Positions 3,162 through 44,840 of a DNA stretch of 44,840 nucleotides are shown one piece after another (the stretch's first letter is position 1; each line of letters starts with the position of its first letter). The DNA comes from Planctomycetota bacterium (lineage in GTDB: Bacteria > Planctomycetota > JAJSAM01 > JAJVHW01), in the NCBI GenBank assembly GCA_022072415.1, contig JAJVHW010000067.1, positions 1 to 44,840 on the forward strand, in the 5' to 3' direction. The notes below the pieces were generated by a model. It was not told where the DNA came from, did not search any database, and saw only the letters and a program-made list of their open reading frames with translations. Position numbers and translations under genes: made by a program.

Positions 3162-4463
3162 ATGGCGACCCCCGCCTCCGAACTCCCCGAGGACCTGGAC
3201 CGCGCGGTCAGCGAGATCCGCGACGCGATCGCGTTCGTCGAGCGCCGCGCCGTCAACCGCTCGGACGTCGTGAAGAAGATCTTCTGCGCGCTCCTCACCC
3301 GCGAGCACGTGCTCCTCCAGGCGCGCACCGGCGTCGGCAAGTCGCTGCTCGCGAACCAGGTCTGGGGGATGTTCGAGGGCGCGCGGATCTTCCACATCCA
3401 GGCGAGCAAGGAGCAGCAGCCGGACAGCTACTTCGGCGCCCTGGACTTGGAGGAGCTGAAGAAGGGCCGCATCGTCCACAACACCGAGGGGTCGCTCGTC
3501 GAGAGCGAGTTCGCGTTCATCGACGAGATCTTCGACGCGAACGACTACACGCTGCGCGCGCTCCTCACCTGCCTGAACGAACGGCGGATGATCCGCGGCG
3601 TCCAGAGCAAGGCCGCGTCGATCCACACCGTGATCGCGGCCACGAACTACCTCCGCGTCACCGAGGTGACCGAGGCGGTCCTCGACCGCTTCCTCTACAA
3701 GGCCGTGATCGAGCCCGACCGCGAGCCGTTCTACATGTACCGGATCTCGCAGCAGTTCGTGCTCCACCGCGGCGGCGTGGCGCAGCCGCCGAAGCGGATC
3801 GCGTTCCAGTCGCTGAAGAAGGTGTCGAACGTCGTCCGCGGGCACGACCCGCAGGTCGCCGTCGCGGTCCCCCCGGAGATCATGTTCTTCGCGAACCTCG
3901 CGCTCCGCCACTATGAGGCCGCGCTCCGCCGCGCGCGCCGCGGGAAGCACGAGACGGGGCCGGACTTCTACATCTCGCCGCGCACGCAGGCGAAGGCGCT
4001 CGACGCGCTCCGCGCGATCGCCGTGATGAACCGGCGGCTCCACGTCACCATCGACGACGTCGGCAAGCTCCGCCTCATGCTCTGCACGGCCGGGCTCCGC
4101 GAGGAGTCGGAGGTCTGGGACAAGGCGTACGAGTCGCTCCGCAACCACTACGCGGCGTCGAACGCCTTCGACCAGCTCCACACGCTCCTCGAGCTCCAGG
4201 ACGTCCTCGACCGCATCCAGCTCGATCCGGAGCTCCGCGCGAGGCCGATCTCGGAGCTCGCGACGACCAAAGTGAAGCGCACCCTCGGCGAGTGGGCGCG
4301 GAAGACCCTGGGGCTCGCCACCGACGAGGCGGCGCACAACCAGCGGCTGCTCTCCGCCTACGTCGAGGCGGTGGAGCCGCTGACCGACGAGATCCGGCTG
4401 CTGAAGGCGCGGCTCCAGGACGAGATCGTCGCGATCTTCAAGTCCGACGAGCGGTTCCAGTGA
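3162..4463 (+). CDS. MoxR/RavA-type AAA+ ATPase
   Basis: A 433-residue AAA+ ATPase of the MoxR branch, close in layout to RavA. Walker A is ARTGVGKS (residues 54-61), Walker B is FAFIDEIF (Asp121-Glu122), a sensor-1-like IAATNY follows, and an arginine-rich VLDRFLYK comes after. The C-terminal part (about 330-433) is helical with charged repeats ending in DEIVAIFKSDERFQ. MoxR ATPases work with a von Willebrand factor A protein as chaperone-like remodellers of metal enzymes or envelope complexes, and exactly such a gene follows after four bases, indicating an operon. The ATG at 3162 is preferred over upstream in-frame codons because the family begins shortly before the Walker A region. The substrate cannot be told from sequence. 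Confidence 0.88.
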   Translation: MATPASELPEDLDRAVSEIRDAIAFVERRAVNRSDVVKKIFCALLTREHVLLQARTGVGKSLLANQVWGMFEGARIFHIQASKEQQPDSYFGALDLEELKKGRIVHNTEGSLVESEFAFIDEIFDANDYTLRALLTCLNERRMIRGVQSKAASIHTVIAATNYLRVTEVTEAVLDRFLYKAVIEPDREPFYMYRISQQFVLHRGGVAQPPKRIAFQSLKKVSNVVRGHDPQVAVAVPPEIMFFANLALRHYEAALRRARRGKHETGPDFYISPRTQAKALDALRAIAVMNRRLHVTIDDVGKLRLMLCTAGLREESEVWDKAYESLRNHYAASNAFDQLHTLLELQDVLDRIQLDPELRARPISELATTKVKRTLGEWARKTLGLATDEAAHNQRLLSAYVEAVEPLTDEIRLLKARLQDEIVAIFKSDERFQ

Positions 4464-4467
4464 CGGC

Positions 4468-6042
4468 ATGGAGACCCCGGCGCCCCTGCTGACGGACGCA
4501 CCCGCCGGGGCGGCGGATCCGGACGCGGGAGACGCCGGCCGCTACGCCGCGTTCCTCGAGGAGATGGACGAGCTCGGCCTCCTCTCCGACCTCGAGGAGG
4601 AGCTCCCGCCGGACGTGAGCGCGATGTTCGAGATCGGCCGCGTCCTCGCCGACCCCGCGTCGAAGCTCGGCCGCGCCGTCGGCCCGGCCCTCGAGCTCCG
4701 GCGCGCCGACACGCCGGAGGCCGAGGACGAGGAGGAGCAGCCGAACGAGAGCCGCGTGCAGGTCCCCGCCGCGGAGGAGTACGAGGCGGAGTTCATCCGC
4801 ACGTGGAGCGACGTGCAGCACGTCTACGCGTGGCAGTGGCTCCTCCCGGAGGAGGAGTTCATGCGCCGCCTCGGCGAGCGGCGGCTCCTCCTCCCGCTCG
4901 CGAAGGCGCCGCGGATCCGCGCGATCGAGGACGGCGGCGACGGCTTCGCGCCGTCCCCCACGAAGCAGAAGGCCTACGTGCTCTTCGACACGTCCGCGTC
5001 GATGTCGCTCCGCCACCGCTTCTCGCTGGCGAAGGCCGTGGCGCTCCGGTTCCTCCGCGAGAACCGCCGCGAGCTCGGCGAGGTGTGGTTCCGCACGTTC
5101 GACGTGGACGTGGGCCCCCTCGAGGAGGCGCGCGACCGCGCGAGCTACGACGCGCTCCTCCGCCGCGTCGCCCGGCGCAGGACGCTCGGGAACGGCACGT
5201 GCCTCGAGAAGGCGGTGCTCGCCGCGTGCCGCGACATCCGCGAGCGGAAGGGGCTCGCGGGCGCGGAGATCCTGATCGTGACCGACGGCGCGGCGCACCT
5301 CGACGAGCGCGCCGTCGCGGAGGCGCTCGGCGGCGACATCGAGCTCCACTGCGTGAAGATCGGCACGGCCGACGTTTACGCCACCGACCAGTGGGTCGAG
5401 GACCAGCTCGAGTTCGGGAAGCGCGACGACACGCGCCGCGAGCAGCGCATCCTCCAGATCCGCGAGCGGCGGGACCGCCTCCGCCGCGCGCTCGCGGACG
5501 CCCAGGACCCGTCCGTCCGCCGCGGCATCCAGAAGGGGCTCGACGAATGCGCCTCGGAGCTCGCCGCGATCGGCGAGGAGCTCCGCGGCGAGTACGGGCA
5601 CGAGATCGAGCGCCTCACCCACGTCTACGTGCAGGTGCCCGACATCGATCCGGCCGTGTTCGCGCTCACTCCCGGGCAGATCGAGTCCCTCGAGCGCCTC
5701 GCGCGCGAGCTCCTCATGCGCCTCGACGCGTCCCCGGTGCCCACGCCGACGATGAAGGACGCCGCGCTCCTCCTCTCCCACACCGCGCTCCTCGCCGCGG
5801 AGCAGTCCGACCCCGCCCTCCGCGACCGCCTCGAGGCCGTCCGCTCCGCGCTCGAGCGCCGCCTCGCCGCCGCCATCGAGCACCACGAGTCCCGCGTCCT
5901 CGACGCCGGCTACCTCACGCCGCAGGACCAGCGCGACCTGCGCATCCTGCTCCGCCGCGGCACCACGCGCTACTCGTCCCTCTGGCTCGCGCTGCTGCGC
6001 TACTTCTACTCGTTCGTGTCGAGGATCGGAGGCAGGGGCTGA
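4468..6042 (+). CDS. von Willebrand factor A domain protein, ViaA-like partner of the MoxR ATPase
   Basis: A 524-residue cytoplasmic protein with no signal peptide. The N-terminal third is acidic (EDEEEQ at about 87-91). A VWA domain begins near residue 168: YVLFDTSASMS holds the metal-binding MIDAS motif DTSAS (174-178), followed by NGTCLEKA and the LIVTDGAAH strand. A charged helical region (about 310-375) and an Arg/Leu-rich C-terminus follow. Together with the upstream ATPase, which ends four bases before this ATG, it forms a MoxR-VWA pair like RavA-ViaA. In such pairs the VWA protein recruits the client and stimulates the ATPase. The last ORF codons run into the lower-GC island. The pairing is secure; the client is unknown. 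Confidence 0.85.
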   Translation: METPAPLLTDAPAGAADPDAGDAGRYAAFLEEMDELGLLSDLEEELPPDVSAMFEIGRVLADPASKLGRAVGPALELRRADTPEAEDEEEQPNESRVQVPAAEEYEAEFIRTWSDVQHVYAWQWLLPEEEFMRRLGERRLLLPLAKAPRIRAIEDGGDGFAPSPTKQKAYVLFDTSASMSLRHRFSLAKAVALRFLRENRRELGEVWFRTFDVDVGPLEEARDRASYDALLRRVARRRTLGNGTCLEKAVLAACRDIRERKGLAGAEILIVTDGAAHLDERAVAEALGGDIELHCVKIGTADVYATDQWVEDQLEFGKRDDTRREQRILQIRERRDRLRRALADAQDPSVRRGIQKGLDECASELAAIGEELRGEYGHEIERLTHVYVQVPDIDPAVFALTPGQIESLERLARELLMRLDASPVPTPTMKDAALLLSHTALLAAEQSDPALRDRLEAVRSALERRLAAAIEHHESRVLDAGYLTPQDQRDLRILLRRGTTRYSSLWLALLRYFYSFVSRIGGRG

Positions 6043-30888: not shown

Positions 30889-31725
30889 TCAGCCGAGCAA
30901 CTGCTCGACCAGCCGGTCGCACTCCTCGCGGCTGAAGTACTCGATCACGATACGGCCCTTGCCGCCCCGATCCGCCACGGAGACACGCGTTCCCAGCCGC
31001 TCGCGGAGCTGCTGCTCCAGATCCTCCAGGTGGGCGGCCTTCGCCTTCACGGCCCCCTCGCGCGGGTCCCCGGACGACTCCTGCACGAGACGCTCCGCGT
31101 CGCGGACCGACAGGCCCTCGGCTGCGACCCGGGCCGCGAGCACACGCTGCGTTTCCACGCCGGGCGCACCCAGCAACGCCCGGGCGTGCCCCATGGTCAG
31201 TGTTCCACGTGAAACAAGCTCCTGCAGATCCGCCGGGAGGTCGAGAAGCCGGACCATGTTCGCCACGGCCGACCGGCTCTTCCCGATCCGCTTGGCGACC
31301 TCGTCCTGCGTGAGGTCGAACTTCTCCATGTAGGAGTGGTAGGCCCGCGCCAGCTCCATGGGGTTCAGATCCTCGCGCTGGACGTTCTCGATGAGCGCCA
31401 GCTCGAGCATCTCCGCATCGTTGGCCTCCCGCACGATCGCGGGGATCGAGTCCAGACCCAGCGACTCGCACGCGCGGAGTCGGCGCTCGCCTGCGATGAC
31501 CTGGAACCGGTCGCCGAGTCGGCGCACGGTGATCGGCTGCAACACCCCGTGCTCACGGATCGATGCCGCGAGATCGCCGAGCTCTCCGTCCGTGAACGTC
31601 CGGCGGGGCTGGTACGGGTTCGCGTCCACGCTCTGCAGGGGGATCTGCGTCACCGACGCCGCCGGCTGCTCCTCCTGACCGGAGAGGAGGAAGTCGAGTC
31701 CGCGCCCAAGCCGTCGCTGCACCAT
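30889..31725 (-). CDS. parB: ParB/Spo0J chromosome-partitioning protein
   Basis: A 278-residue ParB. The N-terminal NPYQPRRTF and the CTP-binding GERRLRA (79-85) define the CTPase clamp domain, ELALIENVQREDLNPMELARAY follows, then the helix-turn-helix (LTQDEVAKRIGKSRSAVANMVRLLDLP) that reads parS, and a Leu-rich C-terminal dimer domain. ParB loads at parS and spreads, organising the origin region. No parA/soj gene is adjacent, although parAB is usually an operon. A parS-type site lies within this coding sequence and another just beyond its stop. GGAGGTG before the ATG is a good ribosome binding site. Confidence 0.95.
   Translation of the reverse strand: MVQRRLGRGLDFLLSGQEEQPAASVTQIPLQSVDANPYQPRRTFTDGELGDLAASIREHGVLQPITVRRLGDRFQVIAGERRLRACESLGLDSIPAIVREANDAEMLELALIENVQREDLNPMELARAYHSYMEKFDLTQDEVAKRIGKSRSAVANMVRLLDLPADLQELVSRGTLTMGHARALLGAPGVETQRVLAARVAAEGLSVRDAERLVQESSGDPREGAVKAKAAHLEDLEQQLRERLGTRVSVADRGGKGRIVIEYFSREECDRLVEQLLG
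31201..31216. promoter_or_regulatory. Intragenic parS site within parB
   Basis: TGTTCCACGTGAAACA, whose other strand reads TGTTTCACGTGGAACA, differs from the classical parS TGTTTCACGTGAAACA by one base. It lies in the DNA-binding-domain coding region of parB, 337 bases from the palindromic site. Intragenic parS within or next to parB is known in other bacteria. Confidence 0.85.
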
Positions 31726-35692: not shown

Positions 35693-36882
35693 GCGATCTC
35701 GCGCGCGGCGCCGCGGCGCTCTACGTGCACGTGCCGTTCTGCGAGTCGAAGTGCTCGTACTGCGACTTCTACTCCGTGCCGCACGACGGTTCCGGCCGCG
35801 CGAAGTACGTCTCCGCGCTGGCCCTGGAGGGCGCGCGGCGCCGGCCCCGCGACTTCCGTCCCGCGACGACGTTCGTCGGCGGCGGAACGCCGACGGCCCT
35901 CTCCGACGCCGACTTCGCCGAGATGCTCCGCGTCGTCGCCGAGCTCGCCGGGGCGCCGCGCGACGCCGATCCGCAGCGCTTCGAGTGGTCGGTCGAGTGC
36001 AACCCCGGGAGCCTCACGCACGCGAAGGCCGCCATGATGCGGGCCGCCGGCGTCACGCGCGCGTCGATCGGCGTCCAGAGCTTCGACGACCGCATCCTCC
36101 GCAGCGTCGGCCGCGTCCACGACGCCGCGACGGCGCGCGACGCCGTCCGGATCGCGCGGGACGCGGGCATCCCGCAGGTCTCGGTGGACCTCCTGTTCGC
36201 GATCCCCGGCCAGGGGATGGCGACGTTCGAGGCGGACCTCGATGCGGCGATCGCGCTCGGCACCGATCACGTCTCCGCGTACGCGCTCCTCTACGAGGAC
36301 GGAACCGTCCTCGAGCGGCGCCTCCGCGAAGGCCGCGTCGAGCCGGAGGAGGAGGACGTGGAGCTCGCGATGCTGCGACGCGCCCACGAGCGCCTCGGCG
36401 CCGCCGGGTTCGAGCGCTACGAGATCAGCAACTTCGCGAAGCCGGGCTGCGCGTGCCGCCACAACATCAACTACTGGCGGAACGGCGAGTACCTCGGCAT
36501 CGGAGCGTCCGCGGCGAGCTACCTCGGAGGCGAGCGCCGGACGAACGTCGCCTCGTGGCGGGACTACGAGGACGCGGTTCACCGCGGCCACGACCCCGTC
36601 GCCTCGGCCGAGCGCCTCGCGCCGGACCGCGCCGCCGGAGAGGAGGCGATGCTCCGCCTCCGGATGCGGGAGGGCATGTCGCTCCGGGACGTGTCGGCGC
36701 GATGGGGGATCGACGCGGCGGAGCTCTGGCGGCCCGTGATCTCGCGTTTCACGGCCGCCGGACTCCTCGCGGCCCACGACGGCGGCGACCGCGTCACCCT
36801 CACGGCGCGGGGACTCGAGGTCGCGAACGGCGTGATGGCGGAGTTCGTCGTGCCGGATCAGCCCGCGAGCACCCGCTCGTAG
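35689..36882 (+). CDS. hemW: Radical SAM haem chaperone HemW
   Basis: A 397-residue radical SAM protein with the cluster motif CxxxCxxC in PFCESKCSYCDFYS (Cys18, Cys22, Cys25), then VGGGTPT, WSVECNPGSL, RASIGVQSFDDRILRSVGRVHD, SVDLLFAIPGQ and RYEISNFAKPGCACRHNINYWRNGEYLGIGASAASYL, the last specific to HemW/HemN-like proteins. The phenylalanine rather than cysteine after CxxxCxxC separates HemW from true HemN. HemW inserts haem into membrane enzymes. GTG at 35689 overlaps the sigma factor stop (GTGA). The last 25 bases overlap the end of bshA on the other strand. Confidence 0.93.
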   Translation: MSDLARGAAALYVHVPFCESKCSYCDFYSVPHDGSGRAKYVSALALEGARRRPRDFRPATTFVGGGTPTALSDADFAEMLRVVAELAGAPRDADPQRFEWSVECNPGSLTHAKAAMMRAAGVTRASIGVQSFDDRILRSVGRVHDAATARDAVRIARDAGIPQVSVDLLFAIPGQGMATFEADLDAAIALGTDHVSAYALLYEDGTVLERRLREGRVEPEEEDVELAMLRRAHERLGAAGFERYEISNFAKPGCACRHNINYWRNGEYLGIGASAASYLGGERRTNVASWRDYEDAVHRGHDPVASAERLAPDRAAGEEAMLRLRMREGMSLRDVSARWGIDAAELWRPVISRFTAAGLLAAHDGGDRVTLTARGLEVANGVMAEFVVPDQPASTRS

Positions 36883-37970
36883 ATCGCCACGTACCGCGCG
36901 AGCACGGCGTCCTCGCCGAACCGTTCCACGGCGCGGCGCCGCCCGGACGCGCCGAGCGACCGCGCGAACGGACGGTCCTCCGCGAGGCGCCGCAGCGCTC
37001 CCGCCGCGGCGCCCGGATCGCCCGGGGGGACGAGCAGTCCCGTGACGCCGTCCTCCACGACCTCCGGCACGCCGCCCACCCGCGTCGCGACGACGGGGAC
37101 TCCGCACGCGGACGCCTCGAGCGCCGCGAGGCCGAAGGACTCCGACTCGCTTGCGAGGAGGAACGCGTCGGCCGCCGCGTGCACGCGCTCCACCGACTCC
37201 GTCTCCCCGAGGAACTCCACGCGATCCGCCACGCCGGCCGCGCGGGCGCGCTCCTCGGCTCCGGCGCGGTCCGGCCCGTCGCCCGCGAGCAGCAGGCGCC
37301 CGCCGCCGCGCGGAAACGCCGCAGCGAACGCCGCGACCACGTCGTGGACCCGCTTCACGGGCCGCATGTTCGACACGTGCACGACGACGAACTCGTCGTC
37401 GCGCGCGAAGTCGCGCCTCGCCGCCGGATCGGGCCGGAAGCATGCGGCATCGACCGAGTTCGGCACCACGTCGATCGCGCGATCGAAGCGGAAGAAGCGG
37501 CGCGTCTCGTCGCGAAGCCACGCCGACACCGCCGTCACGGCGTCGCTCCCCTCCAGGCCGAACAGGGTGGGGCGGTGGTACGAAGCGTCCACGCCGACGA
37601 TCGTGATGTCGGTGCCGTGGAGCGTCGTGACGACACGCAGCCGCGATCCGAGCATCGCGCGCGCGAGGAGCGCGGCCACGGCGTGCGGGATCGCGTAGTG
37701 GACGTGCACGATGTCGAGCGAGTTCCGCTCCGCGATCTCGCAGATCGCCGAGGCGAGCGCGAGGTCGTACGGCGGATAGCGGAAGAGCGGGTACGCGGTC
37801 ACGCCCACCCGGTGGAACGTCACTCCCGTCGCGCCGGCGGGGAGGCGGGCCGGCTGCTCGTACGAGAGCACGTGCACGTCGTGCCCCGCCTGGCCGAGCG
37901 CCCGCGCGACCGCCACCGCGACCGCCCCCGAACCGCCGTACGTCGGATGGCAGACGATCCCGACGCGCAT
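36858..37970 (-). CDS. bshA: N-acetyl-alpha-D-glucosaminyl L-malate synthase BshA
   Basis: A 370-residue GT4 glycosyltransferase, first step of bacillithiol synthesis (UDP-GlcNAc plus L-malate). MRVGIVCHPTYGGSGAVAVAVARALGQAGHDVHVLSYEQP and SLDIVHVHYAIPHAVAALLAR with VVTTLHGTDITIVGVD match BshA closely, as does the PTLFGLEGSDAVTAVSAWLRDET run. The donor-site E(x7)E appears as ESESFGLAALEASACGVPVVATRVGG. The ATG shares a base with the bshB1 stop (TGATG). It is the distal gene of a bshC-bshB1-bshA operon, so the pathway is complete in one place. Confidence 0.92.
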   Translation of the reverse strand: MRVGIVCHPTYGGSGAVAVAVARALGQAGHDVHVLSYEQPARLPAGATGVTFHRVGVTAYPLFRYPPYDLALASAICEIAERNSLDIVHVHYAIPHAVAALLARAMLGSRLRVVTTLHGTDITIVGVDASYHRPTLFGLEGSDAVTAVSAWLRDETRRFFRFDRAIDVVPNSVDAACFRPDPAARRDFARDDEFVVVHVSNMRPVKRVHDVVAAFAAAFPRGGGRLLLAGDGPDRAGAEERARAAGVADRVEFLGETESVERVHAAADAFLLASESESFGLAALEASACGVPVVATRVGGVPEVVEDGVTGLLVPPGDPGAAAGALRRLAEDRPFARSLGASGRRRAVERFGEDAVLARYVAIYERVLAG

Positions 37971-38755
37971 CACCGCGCGCCGGGGCCGAAGAACGCGCCG
38001 ACGTCGCGCACGGGCAGGGGCCGCGCGGCATAGAGCGGCTCCGCGAACTCCACGCCGCACCGCCGTCCGAACTCGCGGCTCCGCGCCTCCATCCGGAGGA
38101 GGAAGTCGGCGCGGGCGAGCGACGTCGCGAACCCCGCATCGGCGGGCCCGGCGTGGAGCTGGCTTGCGAAGCAGCGCGCCAACGCGAGGCGTTCGTCCCA
38201 GACGGCCGACACGTCCACGAGCACACCGCCGCCCGCCGCGACGTCGGGCGCATCGTGCATCGCGTAGTGGTAGAGGGCTTCCGGCCGGTGGGGGACGCCG
38301 GCCGCGGAGAGGTTCTTCATGCCGGACGGATAGAACGCGTCGCGGGCCGCGGCGCCGGCGGCCGCGTGGTCCGGGTGGAGGTCGTCGGGGCGCGGCGCGA
38401 ACACGACGCGCGGGCGGTGACGGCGGTACGCCTCGACCAGCGCGCGACGGAGCTCGAGCGATGCGACGAGCTCCGTGTCGGCGAACCCGAGCGTCTCCCG
38501 TGCGACGAGACGGAGCATGGCCGAGGCCGCCGACGCCTCCGCCGCGCGAAGCTCCGGCGTCCCGCGGCTCCCGCGCTCTCCCGCCGTCAGATCCACGACG
38601 GCCACGCGAAGTCCCGCGTCGCGCATGCGCAGCAGCGTGCCGCCCGCACCGAGCTCCGCGTCGTCCGGATGCGCGCCGATCACGAGCGCGTCGACGTGCG
38701 CGTTCGCGTCGGCTTCGGACGGGGCTCCCGCAGAGACGTCGCGCGGCCGCGTCAC
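37970..38755 (-). CDS. bshB1: Bacillithiol biosynthesis deacetylase BshB1
   Basis: A 261-residue LmbE-like zinc deacetylase that removes the acetyl group from GlcNAc-malate. GAHPDDAELGAGGTLLR carries the AHPDDAE metal motif, TAGERGSRGTPELRAAEA follows, and the later PRPDDLHPDHAAAGAAARDAFYPSGMKNLS supplies the third ligand HPDH with the BshB1-type tail. The start is GTG at 38755, inside the bshC stop (GTGA). It precedes bshA with a one-base overlap. The first 20 residues are a polar, unconserved leader. Confidence 0.9.
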   Translation of the reverse strand: MTRPRDVSAGAPSEADANAHVDALVIGAHPDDAELGAGGTLLRMRDAGLRVAVVDLTAGERGSRGTPELRAAEASAASAMLRLVARETLGFADTELVASLELRRALVEAYRRHRPRVVFAPRPDDLHPDHAAAGAAARDAFYPSGMKNLSAAGVPHRPEALYHYAMHDAPDVAAGGGVLVDVSAVWDERLALARCFASQLHAGPADAGFATSLARADFLLRMEARSREFGRRCGVEFAEPLYAARPLPVRDVGAFFGPGAR

Positions 38756-39987
38756 GCCAGGTCCTCCGGCGACAGCACGGCATGCTCGAGCGAGGGGTCG
38801 GCGAAGGCGTCCAGCATGCGGTCGAGCATCGCCTCTCCGTGCCGGGCCACGAAGGACAGGATGGACAGGGCCCGTTCCTGGGGCACGCCGCCGGGCCGCT
38901 CCGGAGCTTCCGAGAACGTCACGCCCGGCCGGGCCGCGGCGTGCGGGGGAGAAAGCCCCAGCGCGCGGTGCGCCGCCGACGTCATCGACACGTACGCGTA
39001 CTCCGCAGGGCCGCAGACCTGCGCGGCCACGGGAAGCGCTTCCGACTGCGCGAGCACGCGCCCCGCAACGTCCCACGACACGTGCTCCGGACCGCGGCGA
39101 AGGGCTGCGGCGAGCGAGGCCGCGTCGGCGCGATGGCGCGTCCCGTCGCGCCCGACGACGAAGCACACGTGCGGACCGCGCAACGCGAGCGGCGGCGGGA
39201 ACCCGTGTCCGACCGCGATCGCGCGCTCCATGGCGCCGATCTCGGCGACGAGACGGCCGGGCGCGGACGCGTCGAACTCCGCCACGCGGCGCGCCGCGGA
39301 GCGCAGCCACTCCGGCTCGACGACGACGAGCCCGAACCGTCCGAACGTCTCCGCCACTCCGCGAGTCACCCACGTGCCCCACGTCGCGTCGCCCGCGCGC
39401 GGCGTCCACCGGGACATCACGGCCTCCCGACCCGGACCGTCCGGGAGAGATGCCGCGAGTTCCGCGCACTGCGCGCCGAGCGTCGACGGCAGCGGTACCC
39501 GCGAGAGCATGCGGCGGCCGCCGGGAAGCGTCGCCGCGAGGGACCGCACTCCGCCCGTCCCGTCGAGCACCTGCACCGCACACGACTCCGCGTGATCGTG
39601 ATCCTCGGTCGCCGACCACCACACGGGAACCGCGGGGACCCCGGCCGCCTCGATGCGCCGCGCCAGCGCGACCGCGGCGAGCGCCTTCGACCAGACGAGG
39701 TGCGGCCCGCCGAAGAGCACGGGCTGCTGCCCGGCGACGACGGCCACGACTCCGTCCTGCCGCAGCCGCGACGCGGACCGCGCCGCATGCTCCTCGGCGG
39801 CCGGACCGAGCGCCGCAGCGCCGCGGAGGATCGCATCCACGAGCGTCGTCCGGTCGAGCGTCCGCTCCGTCGCCGCGCGCACGCCTTCGCCGAGCGACAC
39901 GGCGCCGGGCGCCGCGATCCTCCCGCGCAGCAGCGCCAGGAAGAGCCCCGCGTCGGAGTGCGCCTGCTCGAACGACAGCATTCTCAC
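38752..39987 (-). CDS. bshC: Putative cysteine ligase BshC
   Basis: A 411-residue protein that adds cysteine to GlcN-malate in the last bacillithiol step. Diagnostic segments are VVAGQQPVLFGGPHLVWSKALAAVALARRIEAAGVPAVPVWWSATEDHDHAE and the downstream PLPSTLGAQC; GQQ-GGP-K and W-A-EDHD-AE are BshC signatures. It is shorter than the Bacillus protein (about 540), lacking much of the C-terminal coiled coil. GTG at 39987 has GGAGG six bases upstream; an ATG six bases on is the alternative. It heads the operon. Confidence 0.88.
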   Translation of the reverse strand: MRMLSFEQAHSDAGLFLALLRGRIAAPGAVSLGEGVRAATERTLDRTTLVDAILRGAAALGPAAEEHAARSASRLRQDGVVAVVAGQQPVLFGGPHLVWSKALAAVALARRIEAAGVPAVPVWWSATEDHDHAESCAVQVLDGTGGVRSLAATLPGGRRMLSRVPLPSTLGAQCAELAASLPDGPGREAVMSRWTPRAGDATWGTWVTRGVAETFGRFGLVVVEPEWLRSAARRVAEFDASAPGRLVAEIGAMERAIAVGHGFPPPLALRGPHVCFVVGRDGTRHRADAASLAAALRRGPEHVSWDVAGRVLAQSEALPVAAQVCGPAEYAYVSMTSAAHRALGLSPPHAAARPGVTFSEAPERPGGVPQERALSILSFVARHGEAMLDRMLDAFADPSLEHAVLSPEDLA

Positions 39988-40045
39988 GGAGCGCCTCCCC
40001 GCTCCGCAGCGACGGAGTTCGGCATCCGGCCGGACCCGATGTCCG

Positions 40046-40054
40046 TGCTATCCT
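40046..40054 (+). promoter_or_regulatory. Extended -10 element TGCTATCCT
   Basis: TG-N-TATCCT is a good extended -10 in the 90-base region between the divergent bshC and 40078 genes. It would start transcription about 18 bases before the ATG at 40078. Confidence 0.35.
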
Positions 40055-40077
40055 CGGTCCGTCGGCGGACGGCGCGC

Positions 40078-40686
40078 ATGAAGACGAACATACTCACCTA
40101 CGATCAGCTCGGCGAGGCCGAACAGGCGACGCTGCGCGAATACGTGCGGTCCCAGCAGGACAGGCACTCCCTCATCCGGGATCACCGCGAGACGATGGCT
40201 TTCGCCGGCTTCGCCGTGTACCTCGGCGCGGTCGCCGCGTGCCTCGGGAGTCCCGACGGACCGCCGATCCTGTCGGCGGCGGGCCCGTCCCTCTTCGTGC
40301 CCGCCTTCATCGCGTTCTGGCTCTACGTCGCGTTCTACCTCCGCTACCAGTTCCGTCGGAGGCGCTGGGCGGCGCTCCGCGTCGCGGGCTGCGACTGGCT
40401 GATGGCCGAGTGGATGCCCGGAAGTCCGCAGGCGATGGCATCGATGCCCGAGGATCCCGCGCGTCCGAAGGCGCCCACGCGCCTCGTCGTCTCCCTAGAC
40501 GTCCTCTGGCCGCTCCGCGCGTCCGTGGTCTCGATCGACTCCGCGCTGAGGGTCTACCCGCCCGAGATCGAGCGCGCGTGGATCCTCGCCGGCGATCGGA
40601 GCACCGACGCGCTGCTCCACGAGCGCATCATCCACGCGGCAGGCTGGCTCGGCTTCGCGGCGGTGATGCTGCGCGTCGCGCTCTGA
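40078..40686 (+). CDS. Membrane protein of unknown function
   Basis: A 202-residue protein with a charged N-terminus (MKTNILTYDQLGEAEQATLREYVRSQQDRHSLIRDHRE), two hydrophobic segments (about 40-57 and 66-90, the latter ending YLRYQFRRRRWAALR), a soluble middle and a hydrophobic C-terminus (LLHERIIHAAGWLGFAAVMLRVAL). I do not recognise the family. The ATG at 40078 is the first plausible start after the extended -10 element. It faces bshC and is convergent with pyrF. Confidence 0.6.
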   Translation: MKTNILTYDQLGEAEQATLREYVRSQQDRHSLIRDHRETMAFAGFAVYLGAVAACLGSPDGPPILSAAGPSLFVPAFIAFWLYVAFYLRYQFRRRRWAALRVAGCDWLMAEWMPGSPQAMASMPEDPARPKAPTRLVVSLDVLWPLRASVVSIDSALRVYPPEIERAWILAGDRSTDALLHERIIHAAGWLGFAAVMLRVAL

Positions 40687-40698
40687 CCGACGCGCGCG

Positions 40699-41604
40699 TC
40701 ACGCCTTCGCGCGGCGGGCCGCCTCGAGGGCGTCGCGCATCTCGATCACCGCTGCGCGCGCCGAGTCGCGCCAGCGCGCGTCGCCGAACCGCGCAGCATG
40801 GTCGCCGGACCGGAAGGCGAACGTGATCCCGCGCGACGAGTTGACGACCGCCGACGCGCCGTCGTCGGCGAACCCCGCGGCGCAGTCGGAGGCCGAACCG
40901 CCCTGCGCGCCGTAGCCGGGGATGAGCAGCGGGGTGCGCGGCATCGCCTCGCGCAGCGCCGCGAGCTCGCGGGGATGCGTCGCGCCGACGACCGCTCCGA
41001 CCGAGCTCCACCCCGACTCGCCGCGCTGCGACGCCTCGGCGCCGAGTTCGTGCACCATCCGCGCGACGCGCGCATGCAGCGTGCCGCCGCCCTCGACGGC
41101 CAGGTCCTGGAGGTCGGCCGAACCCGGGTTGCTCGTCTTCACGAGCACGTAGATCCCCTTCCCGCGGTTTGCGTACGGGAGGAACGGCTCGATCGAGTCG
41201 CGGCCGAGGTACGGGTTCACGGTGATCGCGTCGGCGCCCACGGTGTCGAAGTGGGCCTCCGCGTACGCCTGCGCGGTGCTTCCGATGTCGCCGCGCTTCG
41301 CATCGGCGATCACGAGCACGTTCCGCTCCTGCGCCGCGAGGACGATGTCGTGGTACGCGCGGAACCCCGGCGCCCCGAAGCACTCGAAGAACGCGAGCTG
41401 CGGCTTCACCACGGGGACGAGCGGCGCGACCGCCTCGACGAGCGCGATCCCCCAGGCGCCGACGGCCTCCGCGTGCGCCGCGGGCGTGTCCCTCGCGGGG
41501 CGGAACTCCGAGGGGAGCGAGCCGGGGCGCGGATCGATCCCGACGCACACGGCGGAGCCCTTGGCGCGGACGGCGGCGGCGAGGCGGTCGGCGAAGCGGG
41601 GCAT
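40699..41604 (-). CDS. pyrF: Orotidine 5'-phosphate decarboxylase, PyrF subfamily 2
   Basis: A 301-residue enzyme making UMP from OMP. This is the longer subfamily seen in actinobacteria and myxobacteria: AVCVGIDPRPGSLP, PLVPVVKPQLAFFECFG, ADAKRGDIGSTAQAYAEA (catalytic Lys and Asp pair), NPYLGRDSIEPFL and LIPGYGAQGGSASD. GGAGG lies 8 bases before the ATG at 41604. The ATG shares one base with the stop of the upstream amidotransferase gene (TGATG), so translation is coupled. Other pyrimidine genes are absent. Confidence 0.94.
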   Translation of the reverse strand: MPRFADRLAAAVRAKGSAVCVGIDPRPGSLPSEFRPARDTPAAHAEAVGAWGIALVEAVAPLVPVVKPQLAFFECFGAPGFRAYHDIVLAAQERNVLVIADAKRGDIGSTAQAYAEAHFDTVGADAITVNPYLGRDSIEPFLPYANRGKGIYVLVKTSNPGSADLQDLAVEGGGTLHARVARMVHELGAEASQRGESGWSSVGAVVGATHPRELAALREAMPRTPLLIPGYGAQGGSASDCAAGFADDGASAVVNSSRGITFAFRSGDHAARFGDARWRDSARAAVIEMRDALEAARRAKA

Positions 41605-42218
41605 CAGCGTCCTCCGGAGTTCCAGCGCGCGGCCGCGCGGAGGAAGTTCACGAGGATCGCAGGCCCCGCCGACGTGCGGTAGCTCTCCGGGTGGAACTGG
41701 ACCCCGTGGACCGGCAGGGCGCGATGGGAGAGGGCCATCAGCTCGCCGTCCGCGCCCTCGGCCCGCGCCGTCGCGGCGAGCGGCTCCGGGAGCGGCTCCG
41801 CAACGACGAGCGAGTGGTACCGCATCGCCTCGAACGGCGACGGGACCCCTTCGAAGAGCGGCCCGCCCTCGTGCCGCACCCGGCTCGTCTTGCCATGGAC
41901 GAGGCGAGGCGCGGACGCCACCCTGCCGCCGAACGCAGCCGCGATCGACTGGTGCCCGAGGCAGACTCCGAGGAGCGGAATGCACGCCGACGACGCCGCG
42001 CGCACGAGGTCGACGCTGATCCCGGCATCGGCGGGACCCTTCGGGCCCGGGGAGAGCACGACTGCGTCCGGTCGCGCCGCCACGGCGTCCGCGGTCGTAA
42101 GCACGTCGTTCCTGCGCACGTCCACGACGACAGGACCCCCGGGCGCCTCGGCCGCACGGAGCGCCTGCACCAGGTTCCACGCGAACGAGTCGTAGTTGTC
42201 GATCAGGAGCACGCGCAC
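41604..42218 (-). CDS. Anthranilate/para-aminobenzoate synthase glutamine amidotransferase component (TrpG/PabA-like)
   Basis: A 204-residue class I glutamine amidotransferase: IDNYDSFAWNLVQAL, LSPGPKGPADAG, the nucleophile in GVCLGHQSIAAAFGG (Cys86), and HGVQFHPES (His176, Glu178). This set is typical of TrpG/PabA, which feeds ammonia to TrpE or PabB; neither is nearby, so it may serve both. TAGCAT ends exactly 6 bases before the GTG at 42218 on this strand, so the mRNA may be leaderless. Coupled with pyrF by TGATG. Confidence 0.9.
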   Translation of the reverse strand: MRVLLIDNYDSFAWNLVQALRAAEAPGGPVVVDVRRNDVLTTADAVAARPDAVVLSPGPKGPADAGISVDLVRAASSACIPLLGVCLGHQSIAAAFGGRVASAPRLVHGKTSRVRHEGGPLFEGVPSPFEAMRYHSLVVAEPLPEPLAATARAEGADGELMALSHRALPVHGVQFHPESYRTSAGPAILVNFLRAAARWNSGGR

Positions 42219-42224
42219 GCGGCG

Positions 42225-42230
42225 ATGCTA
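42225..42230 (-). promoter_or_regulatory. -10-like element TAGCAT before the amidotransferase gene
   Basis: On the minus strand TAGCAT is followed by six bases and then the GTG at 42218, repeating the spacing found before the leaderless-type genes on the plus strand. Confidence 0.4.
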
Positions 42231-42249
42231 CGCCGAGGCCGGACCGGCG

Positions 42250-44475
42250 TCAGGTCCGCGACGAGGCGGGGGATTCGATCGTCTGCGCGTGCACCGACGA
42301 GGCGGGCTCCTCGTCCGACGCCGGCAGCGTGAATCCGAAGATGCTTCCGCCGTCGGGGGCGGGCTCGTGCCAGATCCTCCCGCCGAGCGCGGAGATCACG
42401 CACGCGCACATGGGGAGGCCGAGACCGAGGCCCTGCGGCTTCTCGGTCAGCACGTCGCCGAGCTGCTTGAACTTCTCGAAGATCATCTCCCGGAGCGCCT
42501 CCGGGACCCCCGGCCCGTCGTCCCCCACCTCGACGCGCACGGCCCCGCCGTCGGCCCGGAGCGTCACCGACACGTGGCCCCCCTCCCGCCCGAACTTCAC
42601 GGCGTTCGAGAGCAGCGCGTCGAGCACGCGGCCGATCCACGAGGGGTCGGCCATCGCCAGCGGAAGCCCCTGCTCCACGCGCAGGTGCAGCTTGGCGTGC
42701 GCCGCCTTGAACTGCGGGCGGATCCTCTTGTGGCTCTCGAGGACGGCGTCGCGGAGGTTCACGCCCTCGATCGAGAGCGCGGCCTTCCCGGCCTCGAGCT
42801 GCGAGAGCTCGAGCACCTGCTGCAGCATCGCCGTGAGGCGCGCCGCCTCGCGCACGACGACGCCCGCGAACTCCGCCCGCTCCTCGGCGGCTGCGGACCC
42901 CGTCTCGGCGGCCATGGCGCCGAGGATCTCGCCGGCGCCCGCGATCGACTGGAGCGGCGTGAGCAGCTCGTGGCTCATCGACGCGAGGAAGTCGTCCTTC
43001 ATCCGGTCCAGCGCGCGCAGCTCCTCCACCGCGCGCTCGATGTCCCGCGTCCGCTCCGCGACCTTCCGCTCGAGCTCGCGGTTGAAGCCCTCGACACGCG
43101 CGTAGAGCCTCGCGTTGACGAGCGCCACGGCGGCCTGCGACGCGACCGCGCCGAGGAACTTCGCGCGGAGCCGGAGGTCCTGGTCGAGCGGCCGCTCCAG
43201 CACGTACGCGATGATCGCGCCGAGCACCTCGCGCTGGTGCACGAGCGGCGCGACGATCGCGGCCATGGGCACCGTCTCGCCCGCCGCGGGGACGTCCATC
43301 ATGTCGGCGCCCGCGTCGATCTGCAGCACGAACGGACGCTGCTCGTCGATGCGGCCGCGGATCTCGTCGGCCCGCGCCTCCGCGATCGGGTCGCGGGCGA
43401 GCCCGTGCACCACGCGCTGGCGGAGCGCGCCCGAGTCGTCGAGGAGCAGCACGCTGCCGCAGTGCGTGTCCACCGTGCGGAGCACGGACGTGAGCACGCG
43501 ATCGAGGAGCCGGTCGACGTCGAGCTCGCTCGCGAGGGCGACGCCGGTCTGGTGCAGCGCGGCGAGCTGCCGCACGTGGTCCGAGAGGCGGCGCCGGGTC
43601 TCCGTGAGCTCCGCGACCAGCCGCGCCGATTCGATGTTCGTCTCGACCGCGTGGCGGAGCAGCGTCTCCGCGTTCGGGATGTCCGGCACGTCGGCGCTCG
43701 ACACCTCGATGACGGCGCTCTGCGCACCCGGCTGCTCGACCGCGTTCGCGAGCGCCGTGACGGTGCCCGTGGACTGCGTCGCCTCGTCCGCCGCCGCCTC
43801 GCGGGCGGCCATGGTGCCGCGCCACGTCTGGTGCGTCGCGCGCAGCCGGCGCTCGACGGCTGTCCTCGCCTCGTCCGCCGAGCCGACGCGGTACTCCTTC
43901 GCGATCCGCTCGACCGTGCGGCAGGCCACGGCGGTGAACGCCTCGAAGACGCCCGCGCCGGACGTCGCGGTGCTCTCGAAGTCGGGGTCGCCCCGGCTGT
44001 TCAGCAGCGCGCGGAGGTCCTCGACCGGGAGCGCGCCGGGGGCGTCGCGCTTGTTCCACTGGAAGACGAGGGGCGTCGCGTCGGGGGAGAGCCCGTTCGC
44101 CGCGAGATTCTCGCGGAGGCTCTCGAGCGAGCGGAGGTTGTCCTCGCGCGCGGCGGGGCTCGAGTCGGCCACGAAGATCACAGCGTCGGCGCCGCGGAGG
44201 ACGTAGCGGCGGGTCAGGTTGTACTTCACCTGCCCGGGCACGGTGAACGCCTGGAGCTTCAGTTGGTAGCCGTGCACGTTCCCGAGCGGGATCGGGAGGA
44301 AGTCGAAGAAGAACGTGCGGTCCCCCTCGGTGTTGAGGGACACGAGCTCCACGCGGCGGTCGGGGTCGATGACCGTATGGACGTGCTTGAGGCTCGTGGT
44401 CTTCCCCGAGAGCGCGGTGCCGTAATAGACGATCTTCGCCTGGATCGTCTTCTCGCGGACGTTGATCAGACTCAT
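42250..44475 (-). CDS. MglA-type GTPase fused to GAF sensor histidine kinase
   Basis: A 741-residue cytoplasmic protein. Residues 1-200 are a complete MglA-like small GTPase: P-loop GTALSGKT (19-26), TVPGQ (78-82, the MglA form of the G3 motif) and NKRD (141-144). A low-complexity linker leads to a GAF domain (about 300-455), a short coiled coil (455-490) and a HisKA domain with phospho-acceptor His502 in SMSHELLTPLQSI. The HATPase domain (about 600-715) has an N-box SNAVKFG, DDGPGVP and GLGLGLPMCACVISALGG. The ATG at 44475 with GAGGTG upstream is preferred over far-upstream codons. MglA controls cell polarity in myxobacteria; joining it to a kinase suggests GTP-state control of phosphorelay. 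No response regulator or MglB is adjacent. Confidence 0.88.
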   Translation of the reverse strand: MSLINVREKTIQAKIVYYGTALSGKTTSLKHVHTVIDPDRRVELVSLNTEGDRTFFFDFLPIPLGNVHGYQLKLQAFTVPGQVKYNLTRRYVLRGADAVIFVADSSPAAREDNLRSLESLRENLAANGLSPDATPLVFQWNKRDAPGALPVEDLRALLNSRGDPDFESTATSGAGVFEAFTAVACRTVERIAKEYRVGSADEARTAVERRLRATHQTWRGTMAAREAAADEATQSTGTVTALANAVEQPGAQSAVIEVSSADVPDIPNAETLLRHAVETNIESARLVAELTETRRRLSDHVRQLAALHQTGVALASELDVDRLLDRVLTSVLRTVDTHCGSVLLLDDSGALRQRVVHGLARDPIAEARADEIRGRIDEQRPFVLQIDAGADMMDVPAAGETVPMAAIVAPLVHQREVLGAIIAYVLERPLDQDLRLRAKFLGAVASQAAVALVNARLYARVEGFNRELERKVAERTRDIERAVEELRALDRMKDDFLASMSHELLTPLQSIAGAGEILGAMAAETGSAAAEERAEFAGVVVREAARLTAMLQQVLELSQLEAGKAALSIEGVNLRDAVLESHKRIRPQFKAAHAKLHLRVEQGLPLAMADPSWIGRVLDALLSNAVKFGREGGHVSVTLRADGGAVRVEVGDDGPGVPEALREMIFEKFKQLGDVLTEKPQGLGLGLPMCACVISALGGRIWHEPAPDGGSIFGFTLPASDEEPASSVHAQTIESPASSRT

Positions 44476-44542
44476 GACACCTCGGGCTCGGGGGGACGCT
44501 TCCGTCCCTATCGGCTCGCCCCGTCTGCGAAGATGAACCCCG

Positions 44543-44840
44543 ATGGAGCCTGCGCCGCCCCCCGTGAACCTCGACGCGAACGCGTCGGAGCCGCTCCGCC
44601 CGGAGGCTCGCGAGGCGATGCTCCGCGCGATGGAGCTCCCGGCCGGAAACCCGTCCTCCGCGCACGCGGCGGGGCGGGCGCTCCGCTCCGCCCTCGAGGA
44701 CGCCCGCGAAGCGCTGGCCGCCCTGGCCGGCGCCGAGCCGCGCGAGGTGGTCTTCACGTCCGGAGCGACCGAGGCGAACCGCCTCGCGGTCCGCGGCGCG
44801 CTCGCGGGAGCGGCGGGCCGCGGCGGATGGGCCCTCACCG
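44543..44840 (+). CDS. Cysteine desulfurase (NifS/IscS family), 5' part only
   Basis: The first 99 codons of a PLP-dependent class V aminotransferase-fold enzyme that runs off the window. VNLDANASEPLRPEAREAM, AGNPSSAHAAGRALRSALEDAREALAALAGAEP and VVFTSGATEANRLAVRG are the usual N-terminal motifs of cysteine desulfurases. It would supply sulfur for iron-sulfur clusters or thio-modification. The PLP lysine and catalytic cysteine lie beyond the edge, so IscS, NifS and SufS-like enzymes cannot be told apart. It is divergent from the GTPase-kinase gene, 67 bases away. Confidence 0.85.
   Translation, partial: MEPAPPPVNLDANASEPLRPEAREAMLRAMELPAGNPSSAHAAGRALRSALEDAREALAALAGAEPREVVFTSGATEANRLAVRGALAGAAGRGGWALT

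Follow-up and report, generated by a model that had tools for sequence, protein, structure and literature searches.

An MglA-type GTPase domain joined to a GAF-containing histidine kinase in an order of Planctomycetota

The locus raises two questions: whether a single frame really joins a Ras-like polarity GTPase to a sensor kinase and, if so, what the GTPase may do there. The window, i.e., the whole 44,840-nucleotide stretch of Planctomycetota DNA analyzed here (contig JAJVHW010000067.1), holds on its minus strand a gene for a 741-aa protein (P0001, 42250–44475). Direct translation gives no stop inside the frame, which starts with ATG at 44475 and has an AGGTG-like site shortly 5′ of the ATG. 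In the protein, Pfam finds Arf (residues 67–159), GAF (319–452), HisKA (492–563), and HATPase_c (610–719), all passing the curated cut-offs. The preliminary description, in which one continuous frame encodes an MglA GTPase followed by GAF, HisKA (His502), and HATPase domains, is borne out by the translation, Pfam, and phmmer against the PDB. The GTPase motifs named in it (GTALSGKT, TVPGQ, and NKRD) are also correct on direct reading: the protein has G19 and the GKT that ends at residue 26, TVPGQ at 78–82, NKRD at 141–144, and the phospho-acceptor H502. The length of the frame should not be taken as evidence by itself, because the other strand of this GC-rich DNA also has an open frame, of 881 aa. 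The case for a real gene is made by homology, the positional GC bias of the frame, and conservation in relatives, with the same fusion in eight of the nine genomes of the order.

The MglA-type GTPase domain (residues 1–194; 43894–44475, minus strand) is assigned from Pfam, phmmer, structural similarity, and residue conservation. In the phmmer search of the PDB, T. thermophilus MglA (3t12) matches residues 1–192 with an E value of 1e-52, and M. xanthus MglA (5ymx) matches residues 1–190 with 6e-51. The AlphaFold2 model of residues 2–194 is nearest to M. xanthus MglA-GTPγS (6h17; Z 26.0, rmsd 2.1, 190 aligned residues). The GTPase domain is 57–79% identical to those of six full-length relatives of the order. 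In the alignment, all seven order fusions, the window's own included, keep G19, G24-K25-T26, R53, T54, F56, F57, D58, F59, the TVPGQ at 78–82, N141, K142, and D144. For M. xanthus MglA, catalysis is attributed to R53 and Q82, Mg coordination to T54 and D58, and the docking of MglB to a surface made by F56, F57, and F59 (PMC6785124, PMC6876712). The hallmark given for Group 1 MglA is TVPGQ plus an arginine (PMC4316618). At the domain level, every Group 1 feature tested is found (TVPGQ in G3, the intrinsic arginine beside the G2 threonine as R53-T54, GxxxxGKT in G1, NKxD in G4, and the MglA fold with solved MglA as the best sequence match), but the whole protein, with its 741 residues, exceeds the single-domain cut-off of 240 aa used in that survey (PMC4316618). 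As TVPGQ is present, the domain does not belong to the Rup family, defined there by eukaryotic-Ras-like G motifs in place of TVPGQ (PMC4316618).

The C-terminal part is an ordinary sensor kinase in its layout. The GAF domain, assigned by Pfam, spans residues about 318–455 (43111–43524), and a helix at residues 456–490 (43006–43110), recognized from sequence identities and from a single helix at 432–522 in the AlphaFold2 model, leads out of it into HisKA. Pfam and the alignment place the HisKA domain at residues 492–563 (42787–43002), with H502 in H-E-x-x-T-P, and the HATPase_c domain at residues 610–719 (42319–42648); all these features are on the minus strand. HK853-type kinases (4jas) match residues 481–719 with an E value of 3e-29 by phmmer against the PDB, and histidine-kinase cores are the nearest structures to the model over residues about 474–721. 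H502, E503, T506, N624, D652, G654, G656, F666, G682, G684, and G686 are invariant in all seven aligned fusions, so that the H, N, G1, F, and G2 box residues of a HisKA-type kinase are all present.

Whether the two halves belong together can be judged from the relatives. With residues 1–470 as the query, 99 genomes were searched, and a collinear fusion was found in eight of the nine genomes of the Planctomycetota order to which the window belongs: the window's genome, four others of its family (G001–G004), G005, G006, where the contig stops within the gene, and G008, with a divergent second copy (L049) besides. In the ninth genome (G007, 79% complete), the matches are limited to an MglA of canonical type and a weak GAF match. 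Eight relatives (seven of the order plus L049) all show the GTPase, GAF, HisKA, and HATPase domains in Pfam, with the Arf match below the curated cut-off in L045, L046, L047, L049, and L050 and at the cut-off in L043, and with the HisKA and GAF matches of L049 also under it. The N-termini of all eight align to MglA, that of L050 without its first part. The domain-architecture search proposed in the preliminary description thus recovers the same MglA-GAF-HisKA arrangement in eight of nine order genomes, and a stop with a new start in the linker of relatives, named there as the sign of an artifact, is not found: all seven full-length aligned members, the window included, are continuous. Judging from these frames, the two halves form a true, conserved fusion, and no sequencing or assembly join is involved. 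The opposite reading, that two genes were wrongly joined by such an error, has in its favor nothing beyond the stand-alone MglA genes that other families have at this locus. These split forms exist because the same chromosomal slot holds a stand-alone MglA there, and they are an evolutionary state, not a sequencing error. Continuous frames in seven genomes and a further frame truncated at a contig end speak against a misjoin, as does a conserved helix that sits in the would-be join, and we give this reading practically no credence.

That helix should be described together with the segment preceding it. Residues 195–267 (43675–43893, minus strand) form a variable linker, in which pLDDT is below 50 at 229–270. 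The coupling helix follows at residues 268–306 (43558–43674, minus strand), recognized by its HMM and by identities, with the signature LLxxAVxxNxExAxLYxEL. It is 38–79% identical to the six full-length relatives, versus 14–59% for the linker. An HMM of the helix, trained on the seven order fusions only, was run over 5230 ORFs, a set enriched in MglA and GAF loci, and its best 16 matches are all MglA fusions (weakest E value, 0.11): the eight order fusions, the divergent L049, one from Acidobacteriota (L064), and six MglA-kinases without GAF (L023, L149, L152, L153, L170, and L029). The first non-MglA protein appears at an E value of 1.1, and one fusion, L169, ranks lower still (3.1). The Acidobacteriota fusions L065, L066, and L070 are absent among the helix matches listed. 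A model of 17 helices over 392 Planctomycetota genomes gives 16 matches with E values below 1e-10 in 15 genomes, all of them MglA-fusion frames and all members of its own training set, and five weaker, partial matches (6e-4 to 0.01) at other places. The later half of the helix (ARLYxEL) is similar to helices leaving ordinary GAF domains, and the distinctive part is LLxxAVxxN. Within the sets searched, the 39-residue helix is restricted to MglA-kinase fusions, those without GAF and one Acidobacteriota member included. It is conserved although the linker before it is not, and its conservation depends neither on the type of kinase nor on the presence of GAF; the simplest reading links it to the GTPase, and we take it with moderate confidence as a docking or transmission element.

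The AlphaFold2 model of the whole protein, made from an input alignment of seven, is of modest confidence (mean pLDDT 71, pTM 0.35). It shows a Ras fold at 1–194, a helix at 200–231, low confidence at 229–270, a helix at 269–315, GAF at about 320–450, and the single helix at 432–522, which runs through H502 and is followed by the catalytic domain; no interdomain contacts are readable in it. Because the linker is partly disordered by prediction, rigid transmission between the GTPase and the kinase has no support, and a pure tether is possible. In such a tether, the MglA part would only place the kinase at the pole or another site through MglB or RomR-like partners, and catalysis would not depend on the nucleotide. 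The partly disordered and unconserved linker at 195–267 fits this arrangement, and M. xanthus MglA-GTP is described as polar and binding partners (PMC3441718). A mere tether leaves unexplained, however, a specific helix that is conserved across different kinase cores with or without GAF, and we consider it unlikely. If the helix is a docking or transmission element, gating is therefore favored over simple tethering.

The reading that we prefer is a cytosolic sensor kinase in which the state of the GTPase, set by a trans-acting MglB, would gate or position the kinase through the helix; from the sequence data we give it about an even chance. The GTPase would cycle between GTP and GDP, with an MglB-like roadblock protein encoded elsewhere as the GAP. 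In its GTP-bound form, it may dock on the coupling helix or recruit the dimer to a polar partner. Either event would then alter the position of the kinase or the helical register that continues from GAF into the HisKA dimer, and in this way set the protein's kinase or phosphatase activity on a response regulator encoded elsewhere. A second input, from a small molecule or redox, could enter through GAF. That GTP state gates a phosphorelay, as the preliminary description proposed, is plausible, and the retained R53 and Q82 and the MglB-docking phenylalanines would favor it. A precedent is the conservon Cvn8, in which a GTPase, a roadblock protein, a kinase, and a GAF protein are reported in one pathway and the GAF protein, CvnF8, stimulates the autophosphorylation of the kinase, CvnA8 (PMC13343842).

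Candidates for the partners are encoded in the genome, whose assembly is 76% complete. MglA had been described as normally a separate switch working with MglB, and such a pair is found here too: a separate canonical MglA, 356 aa from its ATG, lies between two MglB-like genes (L055, contig C139, 6235–8234). This MglA has a hydrophobic C-terminal stretch, and genes for 1127-aa and 400-aa proteins lie upstream. The suggested search for an MglB or roadblock gene gives only these two MglB-like genes on C139; the window has no MglB near the fusion. The suggested search for response regulators gives 24 receiver-domain matches in the genome (22 over the cut-off), none of them in the window. The genome also has eight matches to T2SSE-type ATPases, none of them in the window. 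A third MglA, proposed from a PF00025 match on contig C154, was rejected, the product being, as we take it from inspection by eye, translation initiation factor IF-2. The assembly therefore holds two MglA-type genes.

The chromosomal position gives a further view of the GTPase. Neighboring genes were identified by crude positional-GC gene calls, blastp, and Pfam. Downstream of the fusion, on the same minus strand, lie a class-I glutamine amidotransferase gene (TrpG/PabA-like, 41604–42218), the orotidine 5′-phosphate decarboxylase gene pyrF (40699–41604), and genes for BshC, a BshB-like PIG-L protein, and a BshA-like glycosyltransferase of bacillithiol synthesis (36858–39981), all conserved neighbors; the names BshA and BshB are presumptive, given by context. 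On the other side, a divergent aminotransferase class V gene (NifS-like, 44543–44839, plus strand) is cut by the contig end; in many relatives, it separates the MglA-type gene from dnaA. Together with the relatives, this gives the gene order of the slot: a trpG-pyrF-methyltransferase-bshC-bshB-bshA block, the MglA-type gene, the NifS-like gene, and then dnaA, dnaN, and gyrB. The neighbors vary: the NifS-like gene and some others are uncalled in part of the loci, and the bsh block differs in orientation. In all 16 relatives whose locus extends far enough (five order fusions, two MglA-GAF proteins, and nine stand-alone forms, picked by similarity to the fusion), dnaA is 0.7–3.4 kb from the MglA-type gene. 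It is not seen at the eight called loci of non-oriC or divergent fusions (L163, L166, L167, L169, L170, L057, L053, and L049). In the window's own assembly (76% complete, as above), dnaA is not found; the contig ends inside the NifS-like gene, where relatives place dnaA, and the proximity of the window's fusion to dnaA is inferred from these relatives.

Two further observations concern this region. A ParB-family gene (HTH_ParB, ParB_N, and ParB_C) at 30889–31725, about 11–14 kb from the fusion, fits an origin-proximal region, and a block of sigma-70, trpG, pyrF, methyltransferase, bshC/bshB/bshA, MglA-type, NifS-like, dnaA, dnaN, and gyrB genes recurs across Planctomycetota families (window 36858–44839, L043–L048, L051, L052, L054, L157–L162, L164, and L168). 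Far from the fusion, at 3162–6042, the window has a MoxR-type AAA gene (Pfam bpMoxR) and then a vWA-domain gene.

What fills the slot differs between families. A stand-alone MglA of about 220 aa is found in nine loci of other families (L157–L162, L164, L168, and L054), and an MglA-GAF protein of 541–542 aa in one further family (L051 and L052, the GAF being recognized by Pfam in L052 and by alignment and HMM in L051). The GTPase is thus the constant part of the oriC slot, whether the other domains were gained or lost, and the gene is an oriC-linked MglA paralogue of the phylum with GAF and kinase domains, distinct from the MglA beside the MglB genes. A constant GTPase, present alone at nine loci or with GAF at two, is what would be expected if the flow were reversed, i.e., if GAF and the kinase sensed a signal and controlled the attached GTPase as the output on a polarity or motility machinery; the retained GTPase catalytic residues would agree with this as well. 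Yet every tested kinase box and the H-E-x-x-T motif are also kept, as expected if phosphotransfer is used, and we regard the reversed flow as rather improbable.

The history of the GTPase was examined in a midpoint-rooted tree of 72 GTPase domains, with rows chosen by hand out of 125 distinct domains. One set of 27 (support 99/98) holds the order fusions, L049, the MglA-GAF proteins, the stand-alone oriC forms, and the non-oriC kinase fusions of Planctomycetota; four kinase fusions of Acidobacteriota/Aminicenantes join it at 91/91. Apart from it stand 41 rows of canonical MglA and MglA-Ser/Thr-kinases, among them the separate MglA from contig C139. The stand-alone forms make one clade (100/94), grouped with MglA-GAF (96/87) inside an otherwise kinase-fusion set, and a single clade of all fused forms without them is marginally disfavored (p-AU 0.046). 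The order fusions are not one clade in the tree (two changes), but a single clade is not rejected (p-AU 0.505), nor is one of the order fusions with MglA-GAF (p-AU 0.438). The tree would suit an old fusion followed by domain loss, and stepwise gain remains compatible with it.

The position of R53 in the fusions at other loci should be noted. Among the non-oriC MglA-HisKA fusions of Planctomycetota (L023/L053, L149, L152, L153, L029/L057, L169, and L170), the arginine finger is lost in all seven, with A, S, or T in its place, so that hydrolysis by means of it is not needed in every such fusion. Like the unlinked position of the MglB and response-regulator genes and the likeness of the later helix half to GAF-leaving helices, this weighs against the preferred reading. 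This loss is what favors the view that the fusion is decaying or inert, with a GTPase part that has no function. The identity of the GTPase across the order and the invariance of all tested catalytic residues argue against it, and we find this view very improbable. The neighbors of the non-oriC fusions are outer-membrane efflux, HEAT, and ABC proteins, from which no clear function emerges.

In one search, DP[LI] occurs at one GAF position in all 12 matches fused to MglA, versus none of 26 non-MglA GAF matches; these 12 rows (the eight order fusions, L049, the two MglA-GAF proteins, and L064) are related, and the model was trained on seven of them. The motif suggests common descent of the MglA-fused GAF domains, without being independent proof of it. 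The same search gives no GAF match in L065, L066, and L070, and L066 has DPL in a longer model. With the kinase HMM, L023 scores 235 bits, the Acidobacteriota fusions 102–135, L049 48, and the other non-oriC fusions 69–90; the best unfused kinases of the window's genome, from a small set, score 181 and 171. One kinase origin common to all fusions, which was also considered, is unsupported by these scores, most cores of the other fusions being not especially close to that of the window's protein.

Related arrangements were seen elsewhere. MglA-kinase fusions without GAF occur at other loci in three Planctomycetota families (L163, L166, L167, L169, L170, L057, and L053), and MglA-HisKA-HATPase proteins in Acidobacteriota/Aminicenantes (L064, L065, L066, and L070), one of them with a clear GAF. 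Genome G026 has three fusions of MglA-type and Ser/Thr kinase domains (L058, 2–2215; L059, 819–3326; L060, 2516–4642), one with TPR repeats. In seven records labeled as Nitrospirota or their kin (L072, L078, L080, L082, L093, L095, and L125), a GAF-GGDEF gene lies directly upstream of MglA, which is another link of MglA to GAF signaling enzymes.

Among described systems, MglA/MglB/RomR and the conservons of actinobacteria come closest, and each consists of separate proteins. With M. xanthus and T. thermophilus MglA, the fusion shares the GTPase fold, TVPGQ, R53, Q82, NKxD, and the MglB-docking phenylalanines; unlike canonical MglA, which is a separate small GTPase, it has them in the N-terminal domain of a 741-aa kinase, falls in a separate tree group, and has no linked MglB, a neighbor that is frequent but not obligatory for an MglA. 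As in the conservons, a histidine kinase and an MglA-family GTPase, and in Cvn8 also a GAF protein, are brought together (PMC4316618, PMC13343842). The conservon components are described as separate genes in one operon (CvnA kinase, CvnB roadblock, CvnC, and CvnD GTPase), whereas here they are one fused gene with unrelated neighbors. The conservon GTPase belongs to Group 2 (GTPGQ, no arginine finger), as the survey defines it, in contrast to the Group 1 motifs here (PMC4316618), and CvnA is described with membrane helices, HAMP, and an LPxR motif, which the tail of the fusion (residues 720–741) does not have. GAF, the connecting helix, HisKA, HATPase, and the standard boxes are those of GAF-HisKA sensor kinases with an HK853-like core, to which the fusion adds an N-terminal Ras-like GTPase and a specific coupling helix. 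The other MglA-HisKA fusions of Planctomycetota and Acidobacteriota likewise have GTPase and kinase in one frame, with the helix recognizable in several, but lie at other loci where tested, have kinase cores that are mostly not especially close to this one, and, in the seven Planctomycetota cases, lack R53. The protein is thus a sensor kinase with a Group-1-type MglA domain inside, neither a canonical small GTPase nor a conservon.

In the open-access literature searched, titles and abstract openings gave no MglA-histidine kinase fusion and no oriC-linked MglA; subscription papers lie mostly outside that body. Links of Ras-like GTPases to two-component systems are described, in the sources available, for separate proteins (Frz/RomR-MglA and the conservons). 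The main survey of prokaryotic Ras-like GTPases, according to its available text, dropped sequences of more than 240 aa (PMC4316618), so that such fusions fall outside its scope.

With the switch, helix, GAF, and kinase in one polypeptide, the link between GTPase and two-component signaling becomes testable with one purified protein. The oriC slot, which within one phylum holds MglA alone, with GAF, or with GAF and kinase, is a natural series on the gain or loss of the enzymatic output of a G protein. That the joined form is genuine suggests that cell polarity and phosphate-based signaling are linked within the protein itself. As a tentative wider picture, which we hold to be doubtful as a whole, Planctomycetota, and probably Acidobacteriota, would have a second, so far unrecognized MglA lineage. 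In Planctomycetota, much of this lineage would lie at the replication origin, and it would repeatedly have been joined to kinases or separated from them; the window's order would have turned it into a GTP-gated kinase, in which MglA docks in cis on its own 39-residue effector helix and may tie polarity or origin position to a phosphorelay.
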